Below, in pieces: positions 11,914-30,088 of a stretch of 33,210 nucleotides of DNA. Every line of letters begins with the position of its first letter. Within the stretch, counting starts at the first letter, position 1. Origin of the DNA: Phycisphaerales bacterium (GTDB lineage Bacteria > Planctomycetota > Phycisphaerae > WQYP01); NCBI GenBank assembly GCA_013044165.1, contig JABEVB010000002.1:1-33210 (forward strand), given 5' to 3'. The notes under the pieces are model-generated. The model did not search any database. It was not told the origin of the DNA and saw nothing but the letters and a program-made list of their open reading frames with translations. A program made the position numbers and the translations under genes.

Positions 11914-12240
11914 TGTGCACTCGTTTGCCTCTTTGTGGGGTCAGCGCGCCACCGCACCAAGGCCTCATGGCTTCAGCGGCGGCCACGAGTGCCTTTTCAC
12001 TCGCCGGGTGCTATTCTATACGCGGTGAGCTTAGGCTTGAAGCTGGCGAAGCCGCCGCATGACACAAGATTCTGTAACGCCGGCGCTGGATGAGGCTTTT
12101 TTGCCTTGCGGAGGGGGCTTTGGCAAAATCACCCCATGCACCGCTATAGGCCGATAAGATGAATTGCCGATTGTAAGCGGTGCGTCACGGCGTTTTTGTT
12201 TATGCCGACGTTCGAGTCACTCATAACAGGAAGTTAATTG
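11914..12240. other. 327-base divergent intergenic region
   Basis: This lies between the APH-like gene (leftwards) and the glycogen-synthase-like gene (rightwards), so it should hold both promoters. A weak candidate for the rightward gene is TTGGCA at 12120-12125 followed 19 bases later by TATAGG at 12145-12150. No RNA gene or clear terminator was seen. Confidence 0.35.
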
Positions 12241-14028
12241 ATGAAATCTGTTGTTCACGTCACGCACGAGGCTGTGCAAAAAATTGGCGGCATCGGCGCG
12301 GTGCTTCACGGTCTGTTAACGTCCAAAGCCTATTCTGAAGAAATTGATCGCGACATATTGGTTGGCCCGCTGTTTTCGACCGATGGGCCGGGCCACTTGC
12401 GACTCGGGGCCGACGGCGAGGTGCTGTACAGTTCCATTGACGGCATCGTCCGCCACCCGTTTGGGCATGCATTTGCCGAAATTGAGCGCAAATATCACGT
12501 AAATATCGTGTATGGCCGCAAGGCGTTTTTTGATTCAATCACCGGCATCCGGGCGTATCCGGAGGTGCTGCTGTTTAACGTAAACCACTACGACCAGCAA
12601 CGAATCAATCTTTTTAAATTTCGGCTCTTTCAAGAGTTTGGTATCGAATCGAGCAAATACGAGTATATCTGGGATTATGAACAATACTGCCGCATTGCCG
12701 AGCCTGCCCTCGAGGCGCTGCACGCCATTGGCTGCCCCGACGGGCCAGACCCGGCGGTGATTTTATCGCATGAGTACATGGGCATGCCGACCGCTCTGGC
12801 CGCCATGCTTAACAACCCTGAACGCTTTCGTACAGTATTTTATGCGCACGAAGTTGCCCCCATGCGCCGCATTGTTGAATCGCATGCCGGGCACGACATC
12901 ACATTTTACAACGCGTTGGAACTCGCCCATAAGCAGAAGCTCAATGTCAATGATGTTTTTGGCCCACAGGATCATTTCTACAAATATCCGCTGGTGGATG
13001 CCGCTCGCCACTGCGACAACATTTTTGCCGTAGGCGATTACATTGTGCGGGAGTTTCGGTTTCTTAATCAGGCATTTGAGTCGCGCAACATTGACCTCGC
13101 GTACAACGGCGTGCCCGCACTTAAAATCAGCCTCGCCGACAAGCTGGCCTCGCGCAGGCGTTTACAGCGGTATATCGGCAAGCTGCTTGGCTTTGAGCCG
13201 GACTATGTATTTACCCATGTGACCCGCATGGTGCTTTCCAAAGGCTTGTGGCGCGACATTCGCGTAATGGAGCAACTTGAAACCCGCCTGGCCCGCGAGC
13301 ATAAGCGTGCCGTGCTGCTGGTGCTTTCCACCGAAACCTCCGCTCGCCGTACCGATGATGTCATGAACATGGAAAGGGATTACCGATGGCCCGTGGCACA
13401 CCGCGAAGGCTACCCTGACCTTACGGGCGGTGAGGCCGCGTTTTACGCCGGCGTGCAGGAGTTTAACGCCCGAAGCTGTGCTGCCAAGGTTATCTACATC
13501 AATCAATTTGGCTTCACGCGCCAAACCTGCGGCCAACGCATGCCCGCCGATATGGACTTTATGGACATACGCCAAGGCTCCGATCTGGAATTTGGGCAAT
13601 CTATTTACGAACCCTTTGGCATTGCGCAGGTGGAGCCGATTTCCTTTGGCGGCATCTGTCTGTTCACGTCGCTTTGCGGCTGCGCCGGCTTTGCGCGTCA
13701 TGCCGCAGGCAACGGACCAACTCCCAACGTGATTGAAGCCGACTACACCGTGGCTCCGGAGCTTAAAATCGCCAACATTAAAGACTGCCTGGCGATCACA
13801 CGCGAAACGCGGGATGCCATCGAAACCGCCACCGCGGCGCGGCTTGCCGATGAAATTCATCGCCGCCTGCCCGCCACCGACAAGCAAATTGACGAGTTTT
13901 TGCAGCGAGGCTACGCCCTGGCGGAAAAAATGAGCTGGGATGCCGTCGCCCGGCACTATGTGCTTCCCGGCATAGCCCGGGCGCTGGCCAAACAACCCCG
14001 CCACCACCAGCAGCCGGTGCTGGTGTAA
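12241..14028 (+). CDS. glycogen/starch-synthase-like glycosyltransferase (divergent GT-B)
   Basis: This 595-residue cytoplasmic GT-B protein opens with VVHVTHEAVQKIGGIGAVLH, where K14-x-G-G17 matches the nucleotide-sugar loop of glycogen synthases. ILSHEYMGMPTALAA and FRTVFYAHEVAPM fit the N-domain. SIYEPFGIAQVEP near the C-terminus has the E-x7-E motif of GT-B retaining enzymes (E457, E465). The chain is longer than bacterial GlgA (~480) and the EPFG segment resembles both bacterial GT5 and eukaryotic GT3 glycogen synthases. Donor and product are therefore unsure; glycogen or another alpha-glucan is likely. ATG 12241 is chosen over the TTG just before it because AGGAAG lies 6-8 bases upstream. 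A long antisense frame across the 3' half is a shadow. Confidence 0.8.
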   Translation: MKSVVHVTHEAVQKIGGIGAVLHGLLTSKAYSEEIDRDILVGPLFSTDGPGHLRLGADGEVLYSSIDGIVRHPFGHAFAEIERKYHVNIVYGRKAFFDSITGIRAYPEVLLFNVNHYDQQRINLFKFRLFQEFGIESSKYEYIWDYEQYCRIAEPALEALHAIGCPDGPDPAVILSHEYMGMPTALAAMLNNPERFRTVFYAHEVAPMRRIVESHAGHDITFYNALELAHKQKLNVNDVFGPQDHFYKYPLVDAARHCDNIFAVGDYIVREFRFLNQAFESRNIDLAYNGVPALKISLADKLASRRRLQRYIGKLLGFEPDYVFTHVTRMVLSKGLWRDIRVMEQLETRLAREHKRAVLLVLSTETSARRTDDVMNMERDYRWPVAHREGYPDLTGGEAAFYAGVQEFNARSCAAKVIYINQFGFTRQTCGQRMPADMDFMDIRQGSDLEFGQSIYEPFGIAQVEPISFGGICLFTSLCGCAGFARHAAGNGPTPNVIEADYTVAPELKIANIKDCLAITRETRDAIETATAARLADEIHRRLPATDKQIDEFLQRGYALAEKMSWDAVARHYVLPGIARALAKQPRHHQQPVLV

Positions 14029-16982: not shown

Positions 16983-18509
16983 TCAGACGTTCGCTTGCTT
17001 GGCGGCTTTGACCGCCTCGGCATGTTTTGCCGCGTTCTGCCTTACGGACAGCACCGCTCGCCGCATTTTCACCCACGTTTCAAACGAAGGCTTGGGGGTC
17101 AAATCTTGGGCCAACAGACCTGCACATGGCAGGCTCGCATCTTCGGTATCGGCGAGGCGGCTCCAACAGACGGCATCCACAAAAGGCTTACTCAAGAGTA
17201 TGTTCACCACCGCCTCAAGCCATTTGGCCTGGTGTTGCTCGTTCCAGGGACGCCTCCACACACCCCCACTGGCTTGCCCTTCCAACGGCTTGCTGGGCAC
17301 GTCCAGCTTGGTAATGACCAGTGGCTTGCCAAAGGGGGCAAAGCGATCCACCAGAGCGCTGATCTGAAATAAGTCGCGCTGCCAGCAACCGTCCTTGGGC
17401 ACCCCAAAGCTCAACTGCAGGCCCAGCATATCAAAGGCGATGCCGCTCTGCACAGCCATTTCGGCATAGAGCAGGGGTGGTATGCTGCGCTGATTGCGCG
17501 CGTAGTATTCGCCCCACGGCTGGGTGACTTCAATCATGGTTTGAGCGCTGGGAATGACCTTTTTAACCAGGCCAACCGCCATACGCGTAAGGTCCATAAT
17601 TTGATCAAACGTAAACGAAAATTGCGCATTGACGTGCAAGCCGCTTAGCACATTCCACAGCACCACCTGCGGGCCGTAGCGGCTAACCACACGCTCAATA
17701 TGCTCATATAGCAGGCCGCGCACCTGCTCATAATCGTGCTCCCACATGTAAAGCCAGTCGGGCACGGCTGCTTCCGAAAACTGCACCAGCGGGCCTGCGA
17801 CCACCGGCAGTTTGGCCCGCCGTAAAAATTCCGTCCACTCGTCGCTCACGCCCCAGGCAAAGCTCTGGGCCTGCGGCTCTATTTGCCGCCAAAACGTGGG
17901 TAACGCCACAAAATCACCGGCCAGCACGAGTTTGCGCCGGTAGGGCTCGCCGATCTGTTGAACGTCCGTTTGGCAGCCAAAGACATTTCGCGGAAAACTG
18001 CGCGTCGCTATTCTTCTTTGCAACAGCAGCTCGGCATGTACCACAGCCGCCTGCTCTGAAAGCGGCAGCGCAATGGTCAAGCAACGATCCGCATGGCGGG
18101 CCGCGTCGGCAGGAGTGTCAAGATTTTCGAGCGCGTTGATCAGGCAATCGCGCGCTTCATTAAATTTTTCATTGATGGCTTGTGCTTCAGGCAGGTCAAA
18201 AAAGCCCCATTCTTCGCGTTTCTGCAAAAGGCGCATCATGCGGCCGCGGGCCAGCTCCACATTCAATATGTAGGGATGTGGACGCTCCGGCAAACGCGTC
18301 GTTTCCTGCATGACGGTGCCAAAGCCCTTGACTTCCCACATCAGCGAAAGCGCCGACGGCCCAGCCGCCCTCTTGCGGCAGGTCACTTCACCCGAAGCAT
18401 ATGTAAACTCCCCGCGGATGGGCACACTGTCAGCGCCCACCAGGTAAGCAGAGGTTAAGTCTAATTCACCTGGCGCTTCGCCATCACGAAACACCAAAAA
18501 ACGCAGCAT
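16983..18509 (-). CDS. GH10-fold protein lacking both catalytic glutamates
   Basis: This 508-residue protein has an N-terminal ~190-residue domain I do not recognise, then a glycoside hydrolase family 10 (xylanase-type) TIM barrel. Barrel signs are FVALPTFWRQIEPQ, VVLWNVLSGLHVN, DMLGLQLSFG, KPLVITKLDV and the closing LTPKPSFETW. In active GH10 enzymes the acid/base Glu lies in W-D-V-V-N-E and the nucleophile in T-E-L-D. Here these read WNVLSG (Gly290) and TKLD (Lys401), so both are replaced. I infer a non-hydrolytic role such as carbohydrate binding. No signal peptide is seen. The start at 18509 is chosen for GAGAAG upstream; the upstream extension is Cys- and Arg-rich and unlikely to be coding. 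Confidence 0.85.
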   Translation of the reverse strand: MLRFLVFRDGEAPGELDLTSAYLVGADSVPIRGEFTYASGEVTCRKRAAGPSALSLMWEVKGFGTVMQETTRLPERPHPYILNVELARGRMMRLLQKREEWGFFDLPEAQAINEKFNEARDCLINALENLDTPADAARHADRCLTIALPLSEQAAVVHAELLLQRRIATRSFPRNVFGCQTDVQQIGEPYRRKLVLAGDFVALPTFWRQIEPQAQSFAWGVSDEWTEFLRRAKLPVVAGPLVQFSEAAVPDWLYMWEHDYEQVRGLLYEHIERVVSRYGPQVVLWNVLSGLHVNAQFSFTFDQIMDLTRMAVGLVKKVIPSAQTMIEVTQPWGEYYARNQRSIPPLLYAEMAVQSGIAFDMLGLQLSFGVPKDGCWQRDLFQISALVDRFAPFGKPLVITKLDVPSKPLEGQASGGVWRRPWNEQHQAKWLEAVVNILLSKPFVDAVCWSRLADTEDASLPCAGLLAQDLTPKPSFETWVKMRRAVLSVRQNAAKHAEAVKAAKQANV

Positions 18510-18770: not shown

Positions 18771-19253
18771 CTATTCACTGCTCGTGCGGCCCGACTCCAT
18801 TTCCGACAGGTACGCGAGTGTCCTTTCCAATTGGCTCTTGAGATGCCGCACGCGGAGCAGACTCTTTACCCGCGTAATGAGTTCCAGCTTGTTGATTGGT
18901 TTTGATAGAAAATCGTCGGTTCCACTCTCCACGCCACGCTCGATGTCGCCCAATTCGTTCAGCGCTGTAACCATCAGCACGGGTATGTCGCGCAGTTCCG
19001 CGTTGGCCTTCAGCCGCCGACACACTTCAAAGCCGCTCATGCGCGGCATCATAACATCCAGCACAATTAGGTCGGGCCGCACCTGCTGAACTTTTTCAAG
19101 GGCTTCCACGCCATCGGTGGCCACTTCCGTCACGCAGTTCAGGCTTTCCAGATAGGCTTGGATCAGTTCCACGTTCTGCGGATTATCATCCACCACCAGC
19201 ACGGTACTGCGCGGTAAGTGCGTGTCGTGACTGTTCAAGGTGCCACCGGTCAT
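18771..19253 (-). CDS. stand-alone receiver-domain response regulator
   Basis: This 160-residue protein is a CheY-like receiver. The acidic pair is D22-D23, the phospho-acceptor is D66 in LIVLDVMMPRMSGFE, T96 is in LMVTALN and K118 is in LSKPI. About 25 residues follow the receiver, mostly helical (LRVRHLKSQLERTLAYLSEM), and there is no DNA-binding or enzyme output domain. Such single-domain regulators signal by protein contact or pass phosphate along a relay. ATG 19253 is chosen over a GTG at 19265 because GGTGGAG lies 6 bases before it. No histidine kinase is in the window. It lies 100 bases after lptB on the same strand. Confidence 0.93.
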   Translation of the reverse strand: MTGGTLNSHDTHLPRSTVLVVDDNPQNVELIQAYLESLNCVTEVATDGVEALEKVQQVRPDLIVLDVMMPRMSGFEVCRRLKANAELRDIPVLMVTALNELGDIERGVESGTDDFLSKPINKLELITRVKSLLRVRHLKSQLERTLAYLSEMESGRTSSE

Positions 19254-19353
19254 TGAATGCTCCACCAGACATTACGCCTGCCAAATTATACCCTGCGCCC
19301 GGCTGCGGCACGAATCGGCGGGCGACAACCTGGCTCGCTGCGGCCGTTCGGCG

Positions 19354-28218: not shown

Positions 28219-28959
28219 TTAATACGTTTGATAAGCCGAATTATCCGCCGACAAAAAGCCCGTGCCCGTACCAACCACGGCCGGCGTTGGCTCGGTGATA
28301 GTGTAGCGATCGTGCTGGGCGCCGGCATGCCCATCGCAGTAGGCCACATTGGTGCTGTTGGTATGACGAAACGCCTGTGTGCCGGCGGCACGCTCGTTGG
28401 GCTGCACGGCGTCGGCATTGGGCGGCACCGGACTTAGCCGGTCGGGTGCACGCATAAAGTAATTGATGCCGCCCCAATAGCCGCCATCGCCAAAGATTGC
28501 ACATGTACTTGGCGAGCGTACATCGGTAACCCGTGCCGGCGTTGGATTAACCTCCAGCGCGCCATGCCCTATGTAGCTGGTGTTGTAGTTATAGCCATAC
28601 ACCATTTGCCCAATCGCCGGGTTCTGCTGCACCGCCGGGCACACCATCACATTGATGTTGACCGATCCCAGCCACATGATGCCCGGCTCATACGATCGTT
28701 GCCCGGTTTGCGGATTGACCGCTATATCAAGTGCCCACGATGGATTACCCCCGCCTTCATACGCCAGCGGATAAAACCCGTCACAACTCACCGTATACGT
28801 CTGGGCCGCTATGCCCAGTTGCCGCAGGTTGCTTAAACAGACGGCACACTGGGCATCGGCCTCGGCGGCCGCCAGTGCCGGCAGCAGCAGCGCAATCAAG
28901 ATGGCGATCAATGCCAACACCACCAGCAATTCGGTAAGTGTGAAGCCTTTGCGCACCAT
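28219..28959 (-). CDS. pseudopilin with H-x9-DG motif (prepilin-type cleavage domain)
   Basis: This 246-residue protein has a type IV prepilin N-terminus. The leader is MVRKG, the cleavage is before F, and the mature chain [20 protein letters not shown] has Glu at +5 as required. The globular part has a Cys pair [12 protein letters not shown] typical of planctomycete and verrucomicrobial pseudopilins. [15 protein letters not shown] matches H-x9-DG. A type II secretion or pilus-like system encoded elsewhere would process and assemble it. It begins 2 bases after the stop of the PEP-CTERM gene, so the two are one operon under the cobalamin riboswitch upstream. It converges on the GH88 gene. Confidence 0.92.
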
Positions 28960-28961
28960 GT

Positions 28962-29912
28962 TCAGCAGGTCCTTTCGGCTCGCAAAGCTTTGCCCCTGCG
29001 CCGCCGCAGCAAGGGTAGGGCCATCACCGGCAAAGCCAAAAGCAACAGAGATGCCGGTTCAGGCGCGGGAGCAGCCGCGACCGAATCAAGAATTAACGCA
29101 TCGCCGGTTGGCACGCTTAATTGAATGAAGTTAATCTGCTGCGACGCAGACAAGCCAATCGGCAGCCAGGTTCCACCCGCGCCGCCGCCAAACGCACTCT
29201 CTATGCCGCCCAGCGTTTGATTAGCCAGCGGTTTGAGCGAATCGTACTCGCCGGCAGCCATCTCAGCCGCAGTTGGAGCCGCATAGTACGCTATGGCCTG
29301 GCTGGCTATCTGCGAACCATTGCCGACCACTGCATAGCCGCCGGCGGAGGCCACCGTCACTGTCGTATCGGTGTAGTAATTGCTTGGCACATCCAGCGCC
29401 ACGGCATTGCCCCCGGCCAGCGCCGCAAGCGACGTTGGTACACTCGTGCTGCCGTTGGGAACATAGCCGACCTTAATAACAGCCTGCGACAGCGTGGAAT
29501 ATTCACCAACAGCCGGGGCGGCGCCTGCGGTATAGCTGCCGGTCTGCGGCGCTGCGTTGGCCGCGTTGGGGTTGCCCAGTTCAAAGGCCGCATTGGTAAA
29601 AATGCCGATGTAACTGTTGCCGGCTACCGGGTTCTGCAATTCAATATCCACATAGCCGCCCGCACCCACAAACGCCAACGACCCGCTGTTGTACTGCGAC
29701 GCAAATGGGTTGTAGCCATAGCCGCCGCTGGTGGCCAGCGGCCCCAAAGCTCCGCTCGCGTCTGCCGACGGAGTTACGATCGTATTGGCCCCTGCTTTAA
29801 ACCCAAGCACACTCGCCCCAACATCTGCCGCGGGCGCACCAGTGGCCACCGCCCCGCCAACAACCAAACTACCAGTCAATGCCAACGCACCCGCCATGCA
29901 AAGTGACTTCAT
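28962..29912 (-). CDS. secreted PEP-CTERM sorting-domain protein
   Basis: This is a 316-residue exported protein. A signal peptide ([20 protein letters not shown]...) covers about the first 27 residues. The body is rich in Gly, Ala, Ser and Tyr with few charges and looks beta-rich; I recognise no enzyme domain. The C-terminus has the PEP-CTERM signal: [19 protein letters not shown], then RRRR. Exosortase would recognise this and the protein would be anchored at the envelope or released. ATG 29912 is chosen because GAGGAAAGG lies 8 bases upstream and the signal peptide follows at once. A cobalamin riboswitch precedes it by about 180 bases and the pseudopilin gene follows after 2 bases. No B12-binding motif is visible. 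Confidence 0.88.
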
Positions 29913-30088
29913 ACCCGCGACCTTTCCTCTGGCGGCACCAGCAAATGAGGCCAAGCCACGCGCACAGCCAACAAAGCCGTTATGCCTTCGCCAAGTTGCC
30001 AAAAAACGGCAACACATTCGCATCAACGATGCCAAGCACCAATTACTTACACGGCCTTGTGTCCCGTATTCGCGAGGACTTTGTGGCC

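Follow-up and report, generated by a model that had tools for sequence, protein, structure and literature searches.

A core gene of the planctomycete class Phycisphaerae matches the profile of GH10 xylanases, yet its product lacks both catalytic Glu residues and cannot be a classical GH10 enzyme. The gene is described here from a window of 33,210 nucleotides (the whole stretch of DNA analysed, positions 1 to 33,210 of contig JABEVB010000002.1 of a Phycisphaerales bacterium, assembly GCA_013044165.1). The acid/base Glu was lost once, in an ancestor of the present family, and the protein has since been held under strong purifying selection. With modest confidence, we take it to be a vertically inherited cytoplasmic GH10 pseudoenzyme that acts in Phycisphaerae as a binding or scaffold partner of a helix-hairpin-helix (HhH) membrane protein encoded next to it.

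The gene (Table 1) has the boundaries given in a preliminary description of this DNA, which did not state the strand; it is encoded on the minus strand. Residue numbering was verified at W285 N286 V287 L288 S289 G290 and at T400 K401 L402 D403. In orthologues L002-L004, L008 and L009, a stop codon immediately precedes the homologous Met, supporting the ATG chosen here and leaving no room for a hidden signal peptide. The N-terminus (MLRFLVFRDGE) was inspected for a signal peptide and none is visible, suggesting that the protein is most likely cytoplasmic.

Table 1. Coordinates of the pseudoenzyme gene, its domains and motifs, and its neighbours in the window
Feature	Coordinates	Strand	Basis or details
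GH10-like pseudoenzyme gene	16983..18509	-	508 aa; ATG at 18509, stop at 16983-16985
N-terminal domain, residues 1-172: small beta-sandwich (2-69), three long helices (82-170)	17994..18509	-	AF2
GH10-like (beta/alpha)8 barrel, residues 173-490	17040..17993	-	Pfam, AF2, profile alignment, Foldseek
Gly290 codon, acid/base Glu position	17640..17642	-	Pairwise and profile alignments
Lys401 codon, nucleophile Glu position	17307..17309	-	Pairwise and profile alignments
Barrel-mouth motif P331-W-G-E-Y335 after strand 5, retained	17505..17519	-	Alignment
R378-D379 after strand 6, retained	17373..17378	-	Alignment
Downstream gene: one membrane helix and HHH_3 (ComEA-type), 168 aa	16431..16937	-	PF12836, E 5.9e-11
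Upstream single-domain response regulator	18771..19265	-	PF00072, E 3.8e-31

The Pfam GH10 profile (PF00331) matches the protein with 38.8 bits (cut-off 22.1, E 8.3e-10), and also matches all 22 orthologues scanned. A 22-orthologue profile finds GH10 xylanases in the PDB with E-values down to 2e-20, and the alignment with one of these (PDB 8b73) covers profile positions 184-486. The AF2 model of the full protein, built on a 10-sequence alignment (pLDDT 77.5, pTM 0.78), consists of a beta-sandwich, then helices, then a (beta/alpha)8 barrel. Foldseek against the PDB gave a top E of 8e-15, and the 50 matches listed are all GH10 xylanases or GH10-based designs. The least confident parts of the model are the pocket loops at residues 333-339 and 369-377 (pLDDT below 50). 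The protein thus belongs to GH10 as a fold family both by profile and by its (beta/alpha)8 structure, in agreement with the retained GH10 barrel proposed earlier. An ordinary GH10 protein, with the motifs WDVVNE and TELD, is encoded separately in the same genome.

The barrel is preceded by what had been described as an unknown domain of ~190 residues. Such a domain is indeed attached, but it ends at residue 172; modelled alone, it gave an AF2 pLDDT of 91.5. No Pfam family matched it and a Foldseek search of the PDB returned no fold match (best E 0.26), so its assignment to a known module was dismissed. The same domain is present in L090, a planctomycete relative that retains the catalytic Glu pair (hmmsearch E 2.8e-10, with a reversed control that was not significant; hhalign 2.3e-11), and because this Glu-bearing protein shares it, the fusion of domain and barrel probably predates the Glu loss. 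Its match to two further relatives, L106 and L107, is weak.

At the acid/base position after strand 4, phmmer against the PDB sets S289-G290 opposite the N-E of W-D-V-V-N-E in 5mrj, 1ta3 and 1vbr, and the 22-orthologue profile repeats this placement on 8b73, the Glu-less loop of the family lying opposite T-E-N. None of the 93 aligned family members (69 from Phycisphaerae and 24 from other planctomycetes) has Glu at position 290; the residue is Gly (58), Ser (10) or Asp (1) in Phycisphaerae, and Gly, Arg, Ala and others elsewhere. Position 401, that of the nucleophile after strand 7, is Glu in two of the 93. In relatives the residue is Arg, Ala, Gly or Ser, or is missing through a one-residue deletion (as in the 24 members outside Phycisphaerae), and a relative from the same genus reads TRLD. 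Lys at this position is confined to the window protein and L107 among 98 aligned proteins, which suggests drift at a released site; a functional role for it is unlikely, and Lys401 was ruled out as a functional replacement on the same count. The earlier placement of Gly290 is therefore correct and the residue is typical of the family, while Lys401 was assigned to the right position but is not the typical residue there; of the Gly/Lys combination for which orthologues were to be checked, the Gly is prevalent and the Lys recurs only in L107.

Losses extend to most other canonical residues of the -1 subsite, where the Asn is replaced by S289, the His after strand 6 by S367, and the strand-3 Trp-His pair by Q243-F244. 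None of the residues that mark GH10 as an enzyme (acid/base Glu, nucleophile Glu, the Asn before the acid/base and the His) is present. Other residues at the barrel mouth are well kept among the 69 Phycisphaerae members, including P331 (67/69), G333 (63/69), E334 (58/69) and Y335 (58/69) in the P-W-G-E-Y motif, R378 (67/69) and D379 (69/69) after strand 6, and D454 (65/69). The P-W-G-E-Y motif is mostly common to L106 and L107, and among the three Glu-bearing relatives the Arg is present in 3/3 and the Asp in 2/3.

Orthologues occur in 241 of 248 sampled Phycisphaerae genomes (192 of the 194 of high quality), with reading frames open and free of stops in most genomes. In a phylum-wide sample, 88 of 392 genomes were positive, a tally that includes weak-scoring Glu-bearing and ordinary GH10 relatives, and a single-protein scan of 84,980 species genomes, which reaches close relatives only, gave matches in Planctomycetota only. 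In a tree of 57 proteins, calculated with the trait columns left out, all members without the acid/base Glu form one clade (SH-aLRT 96), split into Phycisphaerae and other planctomycetes. The tree requires one loss of the acid/base Glu, a single ancestral event, and four changes at the nucleophile position. In the sister group, made up of L090, L106 and L107, the acid/base Glu persists (W-x-x-x-N-E), and the nucleophile motif reads T-E in L090 and L106 and T-K in L107; the order among the Glu-bearing groups is unsure, since root support there is weak (66). The L107 protein (L107:6398-7900), with the acid/base Glu kept and Lys at the nucleophile (ITKMG), is apparently an independent half-loss within the sister group.

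Six close pairs gave dN/dS values of 0.02-0.07 by counting methods, and chance is excluded because the loss is conserved in 93 orthologues under this degree of constraint. Homology to an enzyme, a loss fixed in a clade and purifying selection together define the protein as a pseudoenzyme, and the class-wide conservation and single ancient acid/base loss, along with the strong purifying selection, lend good support to the stable non-enzymatic use first suggested for it. A phage or plasmid origin was rejected, with no matches in plasmid and phage record collections, and a viral structure library returned generic barrels only. Literature searches found no description of this family.

In Phycisphaerae, 74 distinct loci were compared, one of which is cut by a contig end. 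In 67 of the 73 assessable loci, the next gene downstream, on the same strand, is an HhH gene, often separated by a gap of a few bases, so the HhH membrane protein gene noted earlier does follow and is a conserved neighbour. Its product combines one N-terminal membrane helix (a hydrophobic stretch read from the sequence) with HHH_3, the structure of ComEA-type proteins; this genome has no further PF12836 match and carries a ComEC gene away from the cluster. Of the 24 loci compared in other planctomycetes, none has the HhH neighbour. Among the Phycisphaerae loci, no second neighbour recurs across the class, and no polysaccharide-utilisation genes recur beside the pseudoenzyme gene. Synteny with the response regulator, LptB, NrnA or RibF is limited to the family to which the window belongs and its close relatives, so a conserved association with these genes was rejected. 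In Phycisphaerae families f2 and f8 (loci L095, L096, L121, L122, L125 and others), the HhH gene is followed by a gene read as mfd (transcription-repair coupling factor), the name coming from reading the sequence and not from a profile search.

Elsewhere in the window, ribF and a DHH-family (NrnA-like) gene are preceded by a plus-strand gene (12238-14028) for a glycosyltransferase that weakly matches PF05693, the eukaryote-type glycogen synthase family (E 4e-4); in L121, a relative lies ~5 kb from another pseudoenzyme family member. A minus-strand ORF of 169 aa (939-1448), adjoining a coaD-like gene (1566-2144), ends in a mostly acidic Asp/Glu run of ~60 residues. Also on the minus strand, a protein with a C-terminal PEP-CTERM-like sorting signal (28962-30035) adjoins a pseudopilin-like gene (28219-28959).

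In the history that we favour, the ancestor of Phycisphaerae and part of the other planctomycetes would have had a GH10 enzyme already bearing the N-terminal domain. Loss of the acid/base Glu, accompanied by that of the nucleophile Glu, would then have followed, with the barrel and its P-W-G-E-Y and R-D motifs kept. The present role would not involve glycosidic cleavage; the barrel mouth may bind a partner protein or a ligand, whether a glycan or some other small molecule, with the N-terminal domain relaying this binding or scaffolding a complex. The most likely partner in Phycisphaerae would be the co-encoded ComEA-type HhH membrane protein. Neighbouring genes need not encode interacting proteins, and since the gene pair is absent from family members outside Phycisphaerae, a function shared by the whole family cannot depend wholly on that protein.

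Possible, although we lean against it, is a role as cytoplasmic glycan or oligosaccharide sensor or lectin, in which the dead barrel binds a saccharide and the HhH gene is a mere neighbour. The retention of pocket motifs common to the Glu-bearing relatives and the existence of the family outside Phycisphaerae without the HhH gene are in keeping with such a role, but the canonical -1 subsite residues are gone and the gene has no recurring polysaccharide-utilisation genes alongside. Polysaccharide binding or sensing, as initially suggested, is conjectural for a protein that appears cytoplasmic and has lost most of its canonical -1 subsite residues, and whose strongest genomic association is with a DNA-binding membrane protein, not with genes for polysaccharides.

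An unlikely alternative is that the pseudoenzyme is a dedicated part of DNA uptake or DNA handling, positioning or regulating the ComEA-type protein without binding any glycan. The class-wide gene pair, the HhH protein as the only PF12836 match of a genome that also has ComEC, and the putative repair gene mfd next in line in two Phycisphaerae families point in this direction; against it stand the absence of the pairing in the 24 loci outside Phycisphaerae, the position of ComEC outside the cluster, and a literature search that did not find natural transformation in Phycisphaerae. Quite unlikely in its strongest form, in which the GH10-derived pseudoenzyme with its new N-terminal domain is a core DNA-handling component at the planctomycete membrane together with the ComEA-type protein, the idea would imply that, as a bacterial class arose, an enzyme fold was redeployed from polysaccharide cutting to the uptake or repair of DNA.

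It is improbable that the protein is a rewired enzyme, with catalysis moved to the mouth carboxylates E334, D379 and D454 and directed at a different substrate. The conservation of these residues leaves room for other chemistry, but E334 and D379 are mostly present also in relatives with the normal Glu pair, which identifies them as ancestral pocket residues and makes them unlikely replacements for the catalytic pair, and E334 is replaced by Leu, Trp, Ser or others in some members. A decaying relic or sequence artefact, which the lost catalytic residues might suggest, is practically inconceivable given the low dN/dS, the near-universal presence in the class and the stop-free frames.

The protein clearly exemplifies a single conversion from enzyme to pseudoenzyme whose product was then retained across a class; candidate relatives of the ancestral type still exist, and the conserved gene pair offers a direct lead to function. 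Because it matches the GH10 profile, counts of xylanases in Phycisphaerae obtained by profile may be too high.

Its nearest solved structure is 8b73 (AcXyn10A, a GH10 xylanase of Acetivibrio clariflavus), with which it shares the aligned (beta/alpha)8 barrel, the Trp at strand 4, W449 and D454 in the strand-8 loop, and a C-terminal GL...PK motif. Unlike this and other GH10 xylanases, it lacks both catalytic Glu and most -1 subsite residues, has no visible signal peptide, and carries the extra N-terminal domain. The Glu-bearing planctomycete relatives L090, L106 and L107 match it over the full length, and L106 and L107 carry its motifs as P-W-G-[ED]-Y and R-[DN]. The downstream protein resembles the DNA-uptake HhH protein ComEA in having one membrane helix followed by HHH_3, but its gene adjoins the pseudo-GH10 gene instead of comEC. 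A non-catalytic glycosidase-fold barrel reused for binding, as proposed here, is also seen in the XIP-type relatives of GH18, although these belong to a different family and are secreted plant proteins that act as enzyme inhibitors.
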